Positions 24,458 through 39,060 of a DNA stretch of 39,695 nucleotides are shown piece by piece (positions within the stretch are counted from its first letter, which is position 1; the number at the start of each line of letters is the position of its first letter). A program made the position numbers and the translations under genes. Under the pieces are notes generated by a model that worked only from the letters and a program-made list of their open reading frames with translations, did not search any database and had not been told where the DNA came from. The stretch spans positions 1 to 39,695 of the IMG/VR virus record IMGVR_UViG_3300044511_000474; one strand, given 5' to 3'. This stretch comes from a virus.

Positions 24458-25156
24458 TTAGATGAGTTCCGGCTGTGTGATGTGGCTCAGGTCGGCAGCT
24501 GATGTACCGTTGAAGCCGAACATGTCGCCCATGCGCTGCGCGTCTTCAATGCGCTTGCAGGCAATGTCGAAGTACTTGGTTTCGCGCTCGATGCCGATGA
24601 ACTGGCGGCCCATCTGAACGGCCGCAACGCCGGTTGTGCCGCTGCCCATGAAGGGGTCTAGGATGGTGTCGGCTTTGGGGCATAGGTCGATAACCCACCG
24701 CATCACTGCAGTCGGCTTCTGAGTCGGATGGAATCGTTCCTCGTTTCCTTGGCGGATCATCCCGTTCCAACGCCACTCAAATTTACGAACCGCTTTCGGC
24801 CAGTTAGTCCAAGCCAGCTCGCAATCAGCGAAGTCTCCCGAGTTGAGCTTGTCCCAAACTAGCCAGCATGAAGTCGGCGGAAGAACGAAGTAGTTGCCAC
24901 CGAAGAACGCCTGCCAATCGGACGCGGCTCTAATCGCCTCGATCAGGTCGCTAGATGGCGGCTTATCGTCCCACTCAACCACCCCATAGTCCTTTGCTTC
25001 GGCCATCTTGGAAGACCCAACCTTCCCGTTATGCGCCACGCCAATCCCATACGGCGGATCAGTTATGCAGGCATCGACACGCGGCAGGTTTGGCAAAACC
25101 TCCATACAGTCAGCCAAGTAAAGCGTTGCATTTCCGATAACCACAGGCTTAACCAT
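24458..25156 (-). CDS. DNA adenine/cytosine-N4 methyltransferase, 232 aa
   Basis: A beta-type DNA methyltransferase: the catalytic D-P-P-Y-G (residues 33-37) precedes the SAM-binding D-P-F-M-G-S-G-T-T-G (167-176). The size is close to the minimal phage form. It may shield phage DNA from restriction or tune phage promoters. The first 34 residues match the N-terminus of the gene just upstream closely (VIGNATLY-x-x-D-C-M-E-V-L-P, then ITD), which is discussed under findings. The overlap with that gene is 8 nt. Confidence 0.92.
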   Translation of the reverse strand: MVKPVVIGNATLYLADCMEVLPNLPRVDACITDPPYGIGVAHNGKVGSSKMAEAKDYGVVEWDDKPPSSDLIEAIRAASDWQAFFGGNYFVLPPTSCWLVWDKLNSGDFADCELAWTNWPKAVRKFEWRWNGMIRQGNEERFHPTQKPTAVMRWVIDLCPKADTILDPFMGSGTTGVAAVQMGRQFIGIERETKYFDIACKRIEDAQRMGDMFGFNGTSAADLSHITQPELI

Positions 25157-28726: not shown

Positions 28727-29599
28727 ATGGAACTTGCGCAAATCGAGATCGGCCAATACGCGATGCCGGTTGACGAAAAGACCCCCTTTGGCGCCAACAA
28801 GGTTGACCGCTACGGGTGGGTCATGAAGGACAAGCCTGGAACGCTTCAGCAGATCCCGAAGAACTTCTTGTGCATCAATGAGGCTTACCAGCGCGAGGCA
28901 AACAAGCAAAAGGTGTTGGAGATCGCCTCTCAGTGGTCGTGGCTTGCGTGCGGGACCATCACTGTCGCTCAACGGAACGGCCGTCTGTGGGTCATTGATG
29001 GCCAGCACCGTGTGCTCGCGGCACGCAAGCGCAGCGACATTTACGAACTTCCGTGTCTGGAGTTTGAGCTGGACGATGTGCGCGACGAGGCGATGGGCTT
29101 CTATCGCGCCAATGCAGGCCGAAAGCCGGTTACTGCGCTAGCCAAACACAAGGCGCTCCTTGTCGCTGGCGATGCGACCGCAGCACGAGTTGCCGATGCG
29201 CTCGATGCTGCTGGCCTATCGCTGAAGAAGACCGCGAAGTCGGCAGGCGAGATCAAGGCCGTGAGCCTGTTGTACGCACGGGCAAACGAGAGCCTGCCGC
29301 TTCTTCACGCTGTACTTAAGCTTTGCGCCGATCTGTGTCAGGCGGACGGCGTACCTGTTCATGAACGCCTACTCGACGGCATCTGGTACATCGCCAAGAA
29401 CTATGAGCATGGCCTCAAAGATGCAAGGCTCGTTGCGCGCCTCAAGTCCGTTGGTGCGCGCTCGCTGATTACGGCTGCACAGCGTGCTGCGGCTTACTAC
29501 ACGAAGGGTGGCGCAGCGGTTTGGGCTAACGGCATGCTCACGGAGATCAATAGGGGGCTGCACAAGCGGTTCGTGCTGCGCGGTGGAGAAGAAGCATGA
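28727..29599 (+). CDS. DUF6551/ParB-like protein, 290 aa
   Basis: Residues 40-130 show the ParB/Sulfiredoxin-fold pattern: N-E-A-Y-Q-R near 51-56, then D-G-Q-H-R (91-95) with V-L-A-A-R-K. In ParB-fold families D/E-G-x-H-R contacts nucleotide or DNA. The rest is mostly helical (about 140-280). This is the first gene of the rightward early operon. Such proteins often occur in phages and plasmids with unknown role; partition, nicking or nuclease activity are all conceivable. A strong ribosome site (AAGGAG) precedes ATG 28727. Confidence 0.7.
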   Translation: MELAQIEIGQYAMPVDEKTPFGANKVDRYGWVMKDKPGTLQQIPKNFLCINEAYQREANKQKVLEIASQWSWLACGTITVAQRNGRLWVIDGQHRVLAARKRSDIYELPCLEFELDDVRDEAMGFYRANAGRKPVTALAKHKALLVAGDATAARVADALDAAGLSLKKTAKSAGEIKAVSLLYARANESLPLLHAVLKLCADLCQADGVPVHERLLDGIWYIAKNYEHGLKDARLVARLKSVGARSLITAAQRAAAYYTKGGAAVWANGMLTEINRGLHKRFVLRGGEEA

Positions 29600-32045: not shown

Positions 32046-32801
32046 ATGAACCTCTACATTGACATCGAAACCATCCCGGCACAACGCCCTGACATCCTGG
32101 CTGAAATCCGCGAGAAGGCCACGCAAGAACTTGAAGCGAAGATCGCTGACGTTCGCGCACCCAGCAATTACGGCGCTGAAGCCGCAGACAAGTGGATGCA
32201 GACCAAGGGCGCGGAGGCCATTCAATCGCTGCGCGATGGCGTGGATGCCGAGATTGACGAGCAATACCGCCGCACTGCGCTGGACGGCGCATTCGGTCAG
32301 GTCTGCGTGATCGGTTGGGCCGTTGACGATGAGCCAGCACGAACTGTGCAGGGCATGAACGAGGCTTCGGTGCTCTACGGCTTCAGCAAGGCGCTGAAGA
32401 TCGGCGCGTCGTCCTTGTTCAATACCTGCGTCATCGGGCACAACGTTGCAGCGTTCGATCTGCGGTTCCTGGTGCAGCGTCACATCGTCAACGGCATCAA
32501 GCCTCACGCCGTCATTGCACGCGCAGCACAGGCAAAGCCGTGGGAGTCGGAGAAAGTCTTTGACACGATGGTTCAGTGGGGCGGGCCATCTGCGCGTCCT
32601 GGCGGGAGCCTCGACAAGCTGTGCAAGGCACTCGGCATCCCCTCTCCGAAAACCGACATCACGGGGGCAACGGTCTGGGATGCGGTGAAGGCTGGTCGTC
32701 TTGATGACGTGGCCCGCTACTGCGCACGCGATGTAGAAGCGACTCGCGAGATTCACAAGCGCATCACGTTCCAAGAAGCGAAGTCCGAGATCGCCGCATG
32801 A
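32046..32801 (+). CDS. DnaQ-like 3'-5' exonuclease, 251 aa
   Basis: ExoI motif D-I-E-T at residues 6-9 (Asp6, Glu8), ExoII G-H-N-x-x-x-F-D with Asn133 and Asp138, and ExoIII Y-C-A-R-D with Asp229. This is the predicted 3'-5' exonuclease group related to the PolB exonuclease domain. It digests 3' ends in the recombination or repair module. ATG at 32046 follows the hairpin and AAGGAG. Confidence 0.9.
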   Translation: MNLYIDIETIPAQRPDILAEIREKATQELEAKIADVRAPSNYGAEAADKWMQTKGAEAIQSLRDGVDAEIDEQYRRTALDGAFGQVCVIGWAVDDEPARTVQGMNEASVLYGFSKALKIGASSLFNTCVIGHNVAAFDLRFLVQRHIVNGIKPHAVIARAAQAKPWESEKVFDTMVQWGGPSARPGGSLDKLCKALGIPSPKTDITGATVWDAVKAGRLDDVARYCARDVEATREIHKRITFQEAKSEIAA

Positions 32802-33895
32802 GTTCCGACCGCCCTCCCGGCGTAGGCCCTGACAAGACGATGCAGATAGAAAGGAAACGCATGACCACCCCCGAATCCCTGCCGCCGCTGCTGCCGTGCC
32901 CGTTCTGCGGGCGTGCCCAAAAACTCATGGAGCGCCCCGACAACGCTGCGGAAACAGCGTTCATCGCAGCGGTTGTGTGCTACTGCGGCGGCTACGCATC
33001 TTGTGCTCACAAGATGGTGACGAGCAATACGCAGGCAGAGGCGACTCGTGCCGTCACGGCTGAATGGAACCAGCGCGCCGCCCTGTCATCCCGCCCCGTC
33101 GCCGACAGCATCCACGCAGAGAACGCGAAGACGCTGCAGGCCGTGATCGACGAACTGCGCGACATGCTGGGGTTGTCCGAGGGCGACAGCCTGAAGGCTG
33201 CTGTGCAGGCGGTGGTGGCGCGACAGGTGCAGCCCGTGCAGGCTTGTGCGCCTGACATGCGAGCAGCATTTGAGAAGTGGGCGACCAACGATGGCGCGTG
33301 GGCGAACAACATCGCAAGGTCAACATCCGCACCAGATGAATACGCGGACCACCAGATTCAGCAGGCGTGGCTCACGGTGCAGGCGACGCTCGCGCAGGCG
33401 AAACAGCTCCCAGCGCAGGCTGAGGCGGTGGAGCCTGACGCCACTGTGGCTGCGCCGACAACCTACGTCGAATGCTGCGAGTGCAGCAACTGTGGACACA
33501 CCGGTATCAATGACGCAGGCAGCAATGCCGCATGCAACACCTGCGAGTGGTCAGGCCCATCACCCGCCAAGGACAAGTGCCCAGGCTGCGGCCGTGACGG
33601 GACCATGACGCGCGCCTGCCCAGAATGTGGAGAGCGGTACTCACTGGTCTGCGAGGCGCACATACCCGCCACGCAAGCGCCCACTGCTGTGCCGGAGGAT
33701 GTGCGCCGCTACCGCCTGCTGCAAGCTGACATCGATGTAATTGAGGCGGGTGATGAGTTCTTGTCTGATGACACCACGACATGGGCAGTCGACCCCAACC
33801 GGGTATTCGTTGGCATGCCCTACGCCGCACGCGTTCTGCGCCCAGCACGTCGCGCCATCGACGCCGCCCTGTCAGCCGAGAAGGGAGGTGTGTGA
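32798..33895 (+). CDS. Lar-like zinc-finger protein with extra zinc ribbons, 365 aa
   Basis: The start region L-P-C-P-F-C-G (Cys34, Cys37) with a later C-Y-C-G-G is typical of Lar-type restriction-alleviation proteins. The middle is helical and Ala/Gln-rich. Two more zinc-ribbon pairs follow near residues 220-290 (CCECSNCG, ACNTCEW; DKCPGCG, RACPECGE). The whole is much longer than simple Lar (about 65 aa). Start is ATG 32798 by ATGA overlap; ATG 32861 (MTTPES) with AAGGA upstream is an equally good start. Confidence 0.6.
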   Translation: MSSDRPPGVGPDKTMQIERKRMTTPESLPPLLPCPFCGRAQKLMERPDNAAETAFIAAVVCYCGGYASCAHKMVTSNTQAEATRAVTAEWNQRAALSSRPVADSIHAENAKTLQAVIDELRDMLGLSEGDSLKAAVQAVVARQVQPVQACAPDMRAAFEKWATNDGAWANNIARSTSAPDEYADHQIQQAWLTVQATLAQAKQLPAQAEAVEPDATVAAPTTYVECCECSNCGHTGINDAGSNAACNTCEWSGPSPAKDKCPGCGRDGTMTRACPECGERYSLVCEAHIPATQAPTAVPEDVRRYRLLQADIDVIEAGDEFLSDDTTTWAVDPNRVFVGMPYAARVLRPARRAIDAALSAEKGGV

Positions 33896-34395
33896 TGACG
33901 TGCACCTCATACCGCCCAGGCCAGCTTTGCGCAGACGGCTTCCCTATGGCCTACCCAGCCAGTTCGGCTTGCACCCAGCCCGCAGAGGGTGGGGAGGCCA
34001 TCTGTACGATCTATCGCGGTGGCATTGGGGGGTCGTTTGGCAAGTCAACCATATTGCAAGCATGGCTTGATGGTGCCGACAACTTGCCAGATGGACAGCA
34101 CACGCTCTACACCACCCCACCCGCCAGCCAGGAGCAGGCCTACGAAAAGCACCAGAACGAGCTGACCGGGGCGCTCAAGGACCGCGACACATACCACGAT
34201 TGGGCGGACGAACTGGCTGACGCTATCGCCAAGCACACCGGTTATGACATCGGCGAGCACAGCAGCGACAACAACCCTTGGCGCATGGCCCTGAACGCAC
34301 TTGAGTGTCACCAGCGGGCCAACCAGGAGCAGCCCGCCCCTGCTGTGCAGGCAGTGCCGGATGAGGGAAACGAAAGGCAAGGGGACCAGAAGTGA
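33895..34395 (+). CDS. Hypothetical protein, 166 aa
   Basis: ATG at 33895 overlaps the previous stop as TGATG with AAGGGAGG upstream. Residues 1-30 are Cys/Pro-rich, and a later helical part (TGALKDRDTYHDWADELADA, AIAKH) leads to an acidic/Gln-rich tail. Repeats of small modules seen in other genes of this block suggest shuffling. No function assigned. Confidence 0.6.
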   Translation: MTCTSYRPGQLCADGFPMAYPASSACTQPAEGGEAICTIYRGGIGGSFGKSTILQAWLDGADNLPDGQHTLYTTPPASQEQAYEKHQNELTGALKDRDTYHDWADELADAIAKHTGYDIGEHSSDNNPWRMALNALECHQRANQEQPAPAVQAVPDEGNERQGDQK

Positions 34396-34970
34396 TTGAA
34401 GTGCCTACCGACAAGAAGATCCTAGACGCCTGCTGCGGCAGCCGCATGTTCTGGTTTGATCGGGCCGACCCCCGCGCCGTTTACGTTGATAAGCGACGTG
34501 AGCGCCACACGCTGACCGACGCGTCTAGCCGCGGCGGTTCGCGTGAGTTGGTGATCGATCCGGACCATCAGGCCGACTTCACTGCTCTGCCGTTCGCAGA
34601 CAAGACGTTTGCCATGGTGGTGTTCGACCCGCCTCACTTTGAGCGCAATGGCTCAACCGGCTGGGTCGGCCTCAAGTATGGAACGCTCAAGGGCGAATGG
34701 CGCGAGATGTTGCGCAAGGGTTTCGCTGAGTGCTTTCGCGTGCTCAAGCCTGACGGAACTCTCATCTTCAAGTGGTGCGAGGATGAAATTCCGGTTTCGC
34801 AGATTCTGGCCTTGACGCCTGAGCGACCAGTGATCGGACACCGCAGCGGCAAGCAGCAAAAGACACACTGGATTGCGTTCATGAAGGCCGCGAACGACAA
34901 CGAGCCCGTCACCACTGACGCCGCCATGCTCTCCGCATCGCCTGCGGCCAGCCAGGAAGGGGGCGAGTGA
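34392..34970 (+). CDS. SAM-dependent methyltransferase-fold protein, 192 aa, GTG start
   Basis: GTG 34392 overlaps the previous stop as GTGA. Motif I-like I-L-D-A-C-C-G-S (10-17) lies at the N-terminus and V-V-F-D-P-P-H-F near residues 76-83, with F-R-V-L-K-P-D-G-T-L-I-F as the class I post-IV strand. A DPPH instead of DPPY means a DNA N-methyltransferase call is uncertain; small-molecule or RNA methylation is possible. It lacks a visible target-recognition domain. Confidence 0.75.
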   Translation: MIEVPTDKKILDACCGSRMFWFDRADPRAVYVDKRRERHTLTDASSRGGSRELVIDPDHQADFTALPFADKTFAMVVFDPPHFERNGSTGWVGLKYGTLKGEWREMLRKGFAECFRVLKPDGTLIFKWCEDEIPVSQILALTPERPVIGHRSGKQQKTHWIAFMKAANDNEPVTTDAAMLSASPAASQEGGE

Positions 34971-36776: not shown

Positions 36777-37006
36777 AGAAATCGTGGAGAAACTTGGCTG
36801 TAACGCTGTTCGTGCTGCCGATCAAGGTTCCGGTGCTCTTCGCGCTTTACCTGCTGCACCTGCTTGGCGAAGCGGCAGACGAGGCATTCGGATGGGTCGT
36901 GGGCAACACGCCGGGCCTGGAGGAAGACAAGGAGCGCGAGATGGCTCAGCGAAGAATCGAGCGCGATGAATGGATCGCACGGATTACGCAAAAGGACAAA
37001 GCATGA
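36764..37006 (+). CDS. Small membrane protein, 80 aa
   Basis: Residues 10-32 (LAVTLFVLPIKVPVLFALYL, then LHLLG) form one hydrophobic segment or helical hairpin, and the rest is a charged helix (EDKEREMAQRRIERDEWIAR). A membrane-anchored early protein of unknown role. Confidence 0.6.
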   Translation: MRYVKKSWRNLAVTLFVLPIKVPVLFALYLLHLLGEAADEAFGWVVGNTPGLEEDKEREMAQRRIERDEWIARITQKDKA

Positions 37007-37284
37007 CCCCAATCGAAAAACTCCGACGCATCGCAGACAGCACCGCTCTGGACGGAGTGGCTGATGCAATCAGGGAGGTCGCGGATGAGATGGACTGGCG
37101 TCCGATTGAGACTGCGCCGAAGGATGGGACACGCATTCTGATCGCGACACCGCTTGACGGCGTCATGTCTTCCGAGTTCTTCGGGGGCTTGTGGCAGAAC
37201 ATACCGTGGCGAAGAGAGGGCGCAGCGCGCGGCCAGCCTACCCACTGGATGCCGCTCCCACCTGCACCGAAAGGAGCCGAGTGA
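37003..37284 (+). CDS. DUF551-like protein, 93 aa
   Basis: ATG 37003 by ATGA overlap. The second half carries the DUF551-type pattern [17 protein letters not shown], then W-M-P-L-P-P-A-P at the end. The N-terminal half is a helical extension ([20 protein letters not shown]). DUF551 proteins are common in phages and have no known function. Confidence 0.75.
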
Positions 37285-37706
37285 TGCAGCCCAAGTTCAA
37301 CCTTGGCGACCGAGTGCGCAAGACGCGCGGCAGCGAGTGGCAGGGCCGAGTCGTCGGCACGTACTCCACCACACTGACACCCGAGGGCTACGCAGTCGAG
37401 AGCGAGGCACACCCAGGCAGCGTGCAGATCTACCCGGCGAGTGCGCTGGAGATTGCTGGAGATCCGTCAATGCCGCTCTGGGATGGCTGGATCAAGTTTG
37501 ATCGCGAGAGCAAGGACGACTTCCTCACAAGCGGTGTCGAGGCTGATGCGCAAGCACCCGTAAGCCCTTGTAGCGGCCACGCCATCCAGCAGGACCAGGA
37601 TGTACGAGCCGAAACCATCCGCGCAGTCATCGCCCGCCTTGAGCAAGGATTCGGCCACAACTCTGCGCCAGTGTTCGTCATCAAGCAGCAGTTCGGGGGG
37701 GAGTGA
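37284..37706 (+). CDS. DfrB-like (R67 dihydrofolate reductase-type) protein with C-terminal extension, 140 aa
   Basis: Residues 5-56 follow type II (R67/DfrB) trimethoprim-insensitive DHFR almost end to end: G-D-R-V-R-K, W-Q-G, Y[17 protein letters not shown], then G-S-V-Q-I-Y-P and A-L-E. The R67 active-site residues have direct equivalents: Lys32 is Lys13, Gln67-Ile68-Tyr69 are Gln48-Ile49-Tyr50. R67 is a homotetramer with one shared pore; here an extra about 80 residues (57-140) follow, which do not resemble R67. ATG 37284 has AAGGAG upstream. Possible phage folate/thymidylate role or unrelated SH3-like DNA- or protein-binding; activity is not shown. Confidence 0.85.
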
Positions 37707-37921
37707 TGGAAGTAGCTGAAATCCCTGTTGTGGAGGCTGGCCCGCTCGCCGAGACAGCCACGATCAAACGAGCCGCCGAGGCCCTCGGCTTGACCGAGAA
37801 GGCGGTACGCCGAAAGATCGAGGAAGGCGTCTGGATCGAGGGGCGGCACTATCACCGCCGTGGCGGGACAATCTGGGTAGACATTCCGGGAGTGACACGA
37901 TGGGTTCGGCAGGGGGCGTAG
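37706..37921 (+). CDS. Excisionase-like DNA-binding protein, 71 aa
   Basis: ATG at 37706 (GTG just before). The sequence A-T-I-K-R-A-A-E-A-L-G-L-T-E-K-A-V-R-R-K-I-E-E-G is a winged HTH of the MerR/excisionase type, followed by Y-H-R-R-G-G-T-I-W-V as the wing. It lies directly before and overlaps integrase by 22 nt, the usual xis position. Likely controls the direction of integrase action. Confidence 0.85.
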   Translation: MEVAEIPVVEAGPLAETATIKRAAEALGLTEKAVRRKIEEGVWIEGRHYHRRGGTIWVDIPGVTRWVRQGA

Positions 37922-39060
37922 AGAAGCGGGAGCGATCAATCCGCATCCACTTCACATTTCAGGGCAGGCCGTACAAGGAGACCTTGAAGACGGACGGGGA
38001 GCCGATGCCCCCCACACCGGCCAACCTCAAGTACGCCACCAGGCTTGCCGCCGAGATCCGGGAGAAGATCAAGCACGGCACGTTCGTGTTCTCGGACTAC
38101 TTCCCGGCCAGCCCGAACGCGACAACCGGCCGCAGCATCACGGTCGGGGAGCATCTGGAAAACTGGATCAAGCTGCACCCTACCCTCGCAGACTCGACCA
38201 TCAAAGCCTACAGGGTGTCGGTCAACTTCTGGAAGAGCCAGATCGGTGACAAGCCGCTGAAGGCACTTCGGCACTCCGACATCCTGGCCGCGCTGGCGAC
38301 GAAACCGCAGTGGACCGGCAAGACGCGGAACAACAAGACCTCCGTCCTGCGACTGGCCTTAGACCTGGCCCTGCGCGATGAGGATATCAAGGCAAGCCCC
38401 GTGGCCGGGATGGAGGCAGCGCCTCACCAGAAAGACCCGCCCGACCCTTTCGAGATGCTGGAGGTCGAGCAGATCCTCTCTCACATGCGCAGCAGGTACG
38501 GAGAGCAGATCGCCGACTACTTCGAATTCAAATTCTTCTCTGGACTTCGGACCGGGGAAAGTCTTGCCGTGGACTGGAAGAACGTCGATTTCAATCGGCG
38601 TCAACTGCTGGTGGCCGAAACGATCACCCTCGGCGAGCACAAGAAGCGCACTAAGACGAATTCCACCCGCGTGGTTGAACTCAACTCACGCGCCTATGCT
38701 GCCCTGCTGCGGATGAAGAAGCACACCTTCATGCTGCCTGACGGGTGGGTGTTCCGTGCGCCGATGACGGGCGAGCGGTGGGCCGATGATTCCGGGCCTC
38801 GGAAGCGCTATTGGATGCCGACGCTGAAGAGGCTGGGCATCCGCTACCGCAGCCCGTACCAGACCCGGCACACCTATGCGACGATGATGCTGATGGCCGG
38901 GGTGACGCCAGCCTACGCCGCCAAGCAACTTGGGCACTCGGTGGAGATGTTCTTGCGCATCTACTCCAAGTGGATCGACGGGGGCCGGAATGCGTTGGAA
39001 ATGGGGAAGGTGGAAGCGCTGCTTTCGGAGCCGCAAAGAATGCAGGATTCGTTGCCATGA
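37900..39060 (+). CDS. int: Tyrosine integrase with DUF3596 arm-binding start, 386 aa
   Basis: The first about 75 residues (SIRIHFTFQGRPYKETL, then AAEIREKIKHGTF) match the arm-type N-terminal domain. A core-binding SAM-like domain covers about 80-170. The catalytic part has Arg217 (F-S-G-L-R-T-G-E), a basic TKTNSTR hairpin near 251-257, Y-Q-T-R-H (320-324, Arg323 and His324), G-H at 345-346 and the nucleophile Tyr355 in R-I-Y-S-K-W. HxxR is replaced by Y-Q-T-R, a variant seen in this family. The attachment site is not visible inside the window. Confidence 0.95.
   Translation: MGSAGGVEKRERSIRIHFTFQGRPYKETLKTDGEPMPPTPANLKYATRLAAEIREKIKHGTFVFSDYFPASPNATTGRSITVGEHLENWIKLHPTLADSTIKAYRVSVNFWKSQIGDKPLKALRHSDILAALATKPQWTGKTRNNKTSVLRLALDLALRDEDIKASPVAGMEAAPHQKDPPDPFEMLEVEQILSHMRSRYGEQIADYFEFKFFSGLRTGESLAVDWKNVDFNRRQLLVAETITLGEHKKRTKTNSTRVVELNSRAYAALLRMKKHTFMLPDGWVFRAPMTGERWADDSGPRKRYWMPTLKRLGIRYRSPYQTRHTYATMMLMAGVTPAYAAKQLGHSVEMFLRIYSKWIDGGRNALEMGKVEALLSEPQRMQDSLP

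Follow-up and report, generated by a model that had tools for sequence, protein, structure and literature searches.

We found that the 140-aa protein encoded directly ahead of the excisionase gene of this phage is a member of the DfrB/R67 family (PF06442), as confirmed by profile matches, pore residues, and predicted fold. With a probability of roughly two in three, we consider it to be an exchangeable tetrameric nicotinamide/pterin-binding module with dihydrofolate reductase (DHFR) capability and an accessory role in infection. DfrB is an unusual enzyme that is familiar chiefly from bacteria resistant to trimethoprim. Previously, DfrB-like proteins were described in freshwater viromes (PMC7265639) and lytic phages (PMC12466917), and phage DfrB proteins with extra domains have also been reported (PMC9835603, PMC7265639). 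Phage DfrB domains are thus already published, and the gene described here is a further instance; new here are the number of copies, their modular build, the test of pore conservation, the contrast in thymidylate genes, the link to a Burkholderiales prophage, and the PS-1 frameshift.

The window, by which we mean the entire stretch of 39,695 nt analysed, is a 39.7-kb virus record. Its minus strand encodes portal, head, scaffold, terminase, and DNA-ejection genes, a virion gene set consistent with a P22-like podovirus. The plus-strand operon comprises SSB, exonuclease, a Lar-like protein, DNA methyltransferase, DUF551, the DfrB gene, xis, and tyrosine integrase, with the following features:

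32798-33895, plus strand: protein with a Lar-like restriction-alleviation module in the DfrB operon (phrog_599, 9.1e-5)
34392-34970, plus strand: DNA methyltransferase in the same operon as the DfrB gene (phrog_954, 3.8e-72)
37003-37284, plus strand: upstream DUF551-domain gene, translationally coupled to the DfrB gene (ATGA; sequence, domain match)
37270-37276, plus strand: likely ribosome-binding site AAAGGAG (sequence)
37284-37706, plus strand: 140-aa gene with an N-terminal R67/DfrB domain and a C-terminal extension (ORF, Pfam, and NCBIfam matches)
37293-37451, plus strand: DfrB (DHFR_2, SH3-like) domain, residues 4-56 (phmmer, Pfam, AlphaFold/Foldseek, conservation)
37452-37703, plus strand: C-terminal extension, residues 57-140 (84 aa), of low confidence in the model except for a helix; no homologue found
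37703-37921, plus strand: excisionase (xis), overlapping the end of the DfrB gene, alternative start 37706 (phrog_539, 2.9e-8)
37900-39060, plus strand: tyrosine integrase with an arm-type DNA-binding domain (profile matches)

The start of the DfrB gene at 37284 overlaps the stop codon of the upstream gene (37282-37284) as ATGA, and its 3' end overlaps xis. The sequence-only reading had placed a complete R67-type domain inside a phage operon ahead of xis and int; profiles and the gene context of a temperate phage bear this out, with excisionase and integrase profiles matching the two downstream genes. Its term 'early gene' is deduced from where the gene lies and from the operon that holds it. 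Only phage-type genes were identified in the neighbourhood of the DfrB gene, and no integron integrase was seen there. A megablast search of the right-hand 24.7 kb against phage records returned no relative. The phage also encodes two different DNA methyltransferases (24458-25156, minus strand, and 34392-34970, plus strand) and a ParB-like protein (28727-29599, plus strand, phrog_1033).

Solved R67 chains aligned to residues 4-56 without gaps (phmmer, E = 5e-22), as had been claimed for residues 5-56. Over residues 5-56, the identity is 78.8% to DfrB4, 76.9% to DfrB3/B6, and 75% to DfrB1, in line with the three quarters estimated earlier. Pfam PF06442 (DHFR_2) matches residues 4-56 with an E-value of 1.4e-27 and 95.8 bits against a cut-off of 25, and NCBIfam trim_DfrB matches with an E-value of 1.9e-30. 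The residue map proposed from the sequence was also right, with Lys32, Gln67, Ile68, and Tyr69 of R67 corresponding to Lys13, Gln48, Ile49, and Tyr50. In addition, W38, Y46, and T51 of R67 correspond to W19 and positions 27 and 32, VQIY occupies positions 47-50, and the position of R67 W45 is taken by T26. The identity of 75-79% to DfrB1-B6 could suggest that the phage recently took a mobile resistance gene from an integron, and phages do carry resistance genes. However, the phage protein of 140 aa has neither the N-terminal tail nor the length of about 78 aa of integron DfrBs, and its trim_DfrB score of 104.6 bits is under the curated NCBI resistance cut-off of 137. Moreover, its nearest relative is a prophage gene (see below), and the diversity of phage DfrBs is far above that of the integron group. 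We consider such a recent capture very improbable.

The AlphaFold model calculated with 64 aligned sequences predicts that the domain adopts the R67 SH3-like barrel with a pLDDT of about 87-96, whereas the model without an alignment was uninformative (pLDDT 39). In Foldseek, the only strong matches were R67 structures (1vie, E = 5.8e-8, 1.0 Å for the r.m.s.d., target TM 0.92), and other SH3-like, Tudor, and chromo folds matched only weakly. We compared R67 with 11 phage proteins chosen by E-value, including that of this phage. At the positions that we assume to form the pore (R67 K32, 36, 46, 51, and 64-69), the mean conservation in these 12 sequences was 0.975 as compared with 0.733 for all positions (permutation p = 3e-4). 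K32, W38, Y46, T51, V66, Q67, and Y69 are invariant in this set, and W45 varies; W38, a tetramer interface residue in R67, is thus kept in the phage protein. We gave no weight to the conservation of VQIY in loci from the motif scan, since the presence of this motif is what the scan selects. Since the pore positions are near-invariant across phage copies, the pore, beyond the barrel alone, is under selection in phages. Pore conservation by itself is compatible with either catalysis or binding and cannot tell them apart.

The sequence-only reading had also considered a non-catalytic SH3-like domain, which would bind protein or DNA and merely resemble R67. Binding is the usual job of SH3-like folds, such folds are found among the weak structural matches, and the domain has many fusion partners. 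However, this idea is weakened by the identity of 75-79% to true enzymes, by a pore and W38 that are invariant across distant phages, and by the phage homologue DfrB-H4, which is active and confers trimethoprim resistance (PMC9835603). It therefore seems quite unlikely.

DfrB domains are widespread among phages. A tblastn search found the domain in 26 phage records, which belong to phages of Rhizobium, Sinorhizobium, Pseudomonas, Vibrio, Ochrobactrum, Aeromonas, and Skermania. Scanning viral contigs by alignment gave 265 DfrB places, as compared with 50 DfrB loci when 84,980 genomes were scanned in a similar manner, and a profile search of 397 further Pseudomonadota genomes found no other clear DfrB copy. 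The density per base comes to roughly 11 per Gb in phage records versus 0.2 per Gb in genomes, two values obtained by different search methods. The domain occurs alone (59-74 aa), at the N terminus, or at the C terminus after long variable proteins with recurring linkers; its fusion partners include Lar, DUF551 (fused to DfrB in phage locus L036), and a phage pyrophosphatase family (the last in two loci). A tyrosine integrase was found in 25 of the 44 DfrB phage records tested. Because DfrB copies are widespread and exchangeable in phage genomes, phages are the likely reservoir of DfrB; this idea, raised earlier from the sequence, is now well supported by the distribution.

Several loci from the survey deserve a separate description. 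PS-1-like viral contigs (L002-L042) encode long proteins of swappable modules in which the linkers RPAQTEQQP, LYAAPIAQTAPQ, and TAVDMATAAAQGFRDG recur; DfrB is usually the last module, and Lar or DUF551 modules lie inside some of these proteins. In L101 (4111-4791) and L118 (5452-6063), the DfrB domain lies within proteins resembling the phage pyrophosphatase family phrog_5658, which two members of the DfrB set match. Bradyrhizobium, Ensifer, Sphingomonas, and Novosphingobium genomes contain a distinct stand-alone DfrB-like gene of 71-87 aa (L089-L095), whose products are about 51-54% identical to the phage domain studied here. A contig of a Polynucleobacter MAG (L048, 8001-8750) carries, within 1 kb, two DfrB domains that differ from each other and lie on opposite strands.

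The best match to the phage protein, with 95% identity over residues 1-56, was found in a MAG of Aquabacterium (Burkholderiales; locus L047). The L047 gene occupies the same site directly upstream of an AlpA/xis-like frame and an integrase and lies beside a uracil phosphoribosyltransferase gene, with gene names read from the translations; because of these neighbours, the locus looks like a prophage. The DNA similarity spans the domain (37280-37451, 92%) and stops short of the tail. A dN of 0.044 against a dS of 0.217 in this comparison means that the domain is under purifying selection. The C-terminal extension of L047 is unrelated to that of the phage, yet both end with FGGE before xis, and in L047 the upstream coupled gene lies at a greater distance, with a different stretch in between. 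Such similarity confined to the domain, with unrelated tails, is module exchange seen directly.

The extension of the phage protein is predicted by AlphaFold to be mostly disordered with a single helix (residues 99-122). A survey for the domain together with its extension gave a divided result: the domain is widespread in phage records, whereas no homologue of the extension was found in phage records, IMG/VR, or the fetched loci. Weak matches to residues 13-114 in about 40 Aquabacterium-family genomes came from one common sequence, presumably of the RmuC type, and were taken as chance.

We propose that the first 57 residues would fold into the R67 SH3-like barrel and that four copies would assemble into the R67 ring (D2 homotetramer) with one central pore, leaving the C-terminal tail as an exchangeable appendage outside the barrel. 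The pore would bind NADPH and dihydrofolate, or similar nicotinamide, pterin, or nucleotide ligands, via K13 and V47-Q48-I49-Y50, and could transfer hydride slowly in a trimethoprim-insensitive manner. The tetramer and the DHFR capability, which we regard as likely, are inferred from the 75-79% identity and the published activity of homologues. Fused homologues, among them DfrB-H4 from a Vibrio phage, confer trimethoprim resistance, and DfrB-H5 shows signs of assembling into a tetramer and of working by a mechanism like that of DfrB (PMC9835603). During infection, the protein would play an accessory (moron or host-takeover) role, with a cofactor of the host being bound or reduced in the pore, rather than serve as a step in a phage-encoded thymidylate cycle.

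The sequence-only reading had suggested a role in phage nucleotide synthesis. In the corresponding explanation, a working DHFR would feed tetrahydrofolate to the thymidylate and purine pathways of the host during phage replication, a job like that of T4 Frd with a different fold. The complete active site and the DHFR activity of homologues (PMC9835603) favour it, as do DfrB copies located among replication genes or in a pyrophosphatase-matching protein. However, neither ThyA nor ThyX was found in the 39,695-nt phage sequence. Among 44 DfrB phage records, ThyA was present in one and ThyX in none, whereas 11 of 26 size-similar contigs with FolA-type DHFR had ThyA (Fisher p = 3e-5 for ThyA), although many viral records are fragments and the absence of ThyA concerns contigs. 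Four FolA phages were inspected, and three of them have thymidylate synthase next to the FolA-type DHFR gene. In addition, the efficiency of catalysis by R67-type enzymes is some two orders of magnitude below that of FolA (PMC9835603). The nucleotide-synthesis role is weakened by this contrast, and we regard it as possible but doubtful.

We favour the accessory role because DfrB phages rarely have ThyA, whereas FolA phages often do. Further signs of such a role are the occurrence of the domain alone or at either end of unrelated partners and the nearby genes for a Lar-like protein and a DNA methyltransferase; a methyltransferase also adjoins DfrB in PS-1. Against it, one DfrB copy adjoins a DNA polymerase and the L101 and L118 proteins match a pyrophosphatase, which would fit nucleotide metabolism, and the ThyA of the host could be the user of phage-made tetrahydrofolate. 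In a different explanation, the pore would soak up or sense a host signal of the nicotinamide or nucleotide type, such as a defence signal or the NAD(P)H pool, and DHFR activity would be a side reaction that later became drug resistance. The symmetric, promiscuous, and strongly selected pore would fit such a function, as would the missing thymidylate genes and the exchangeable accessory setting with restriction-alleviation and methyltransferase neighbours. However, this neighbourhood is typical, non-specific accessory DNA of phages, and our literature search gave no known anti-defence protein of the R67 fold. This explanation is tentative, and we would not expect it to hold.

The finders of the fused homologues could not decide the origin of DfrB and called for metagenomes (PMC9835603), and the study that later named Burkholderiales as the original dfrB hosts does not mention phages (PMC11662351). 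In our 112-row tree, the R67/integron-type group forms one branch and is placed with the phage rows L100 and L097 (99/82, 100/79), whose gene neighbours are phage-type. This branch lies in a 67-row group (99/89) that otherwise contains phage or prophage rows and one Azoarcus row. The outgroup-rooted tree places the integron group inside a phage-rich ingroup with modest support. Viral contig L260 encodes a DfrB that shares 85% identity with the integron type and is followed downstream by a large gene resembling a serine recombinase, as read from the translation. Chromosomal integron-type dfrB genes have acetyltransferase and other cassette-like genes as neighbours, with integron integrases at two loci. 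The tree positions suggest that integron-type DfrBs may have been captured from phages. Of the earlier proposal that phages are their source, the adjacency of phage rows to the integron/R67 group stands, but the nesting within phages was not significant (AU test p = 0.19, 55-column domain alignment) and the alternative was not rejected. It is conceivable, though rather unlikely, that the R67 fold arose and persists in phages as an exchangeable pore capturing or reducing a host nicotinamide/nucleotide or pterin signal, and that clinical DfrBs go back to the capture of this phage module, its DHFR activity having been incidental before trimethoprim was used. With a phage that has a Burkholderiales prophage relative, hundreds of viral copies, and the adjacency in the tree, it becomes testable where a resistance enzyme came from and what its native function is, and the missing thymidylate genes tell where not to look for that function.

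The copy in Pseudomonas phage PS-1 (L149, 2701-3204; also L042) is frame-shifted in the last strand relative to intact copies such as those of L035 and L038, and the copy studied here is intact. The published primer for the DfrB-H3 segment encodes the shifted tail of PS-1, which may explain why DfrB-H3 was insoluble and the sole inactive homologue (PMC9835603).

FolA-type phage DHFRs such as T4 Frd could catalyse the same reaction as DfrB, but the folds are unrelated, and the thymidylate synthase that often accompanies FolA in the same phage, as in T4 frd-td, is lacking in the phage studied here, as in DfrB phages generally. DfrB-H3, -H4, -H5, and -H6 (PMC9835603), which include Pseudomonas and Vibrio phage proteins, likewise combine the domain with unrelated extra sequence in a phage or mobile context near DNA methyltransferases; the partner sequence differs, and the domain is N-terminal here. 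R67/DfrB1 and DfrB2-B21 (PF06442) share with the phage protein the SH3-like domain, 75-79% identical over 52 residues for DfrB1/B3/B4/B6, with the pore and W38 kept. In contrast, the phage protein has no N-terminal tail, carries an 84-aa extension and Thr in place of W45, scores below the trim_DfrB cut-off, and is encoded in a phage operon instead of an integron or chromosome.
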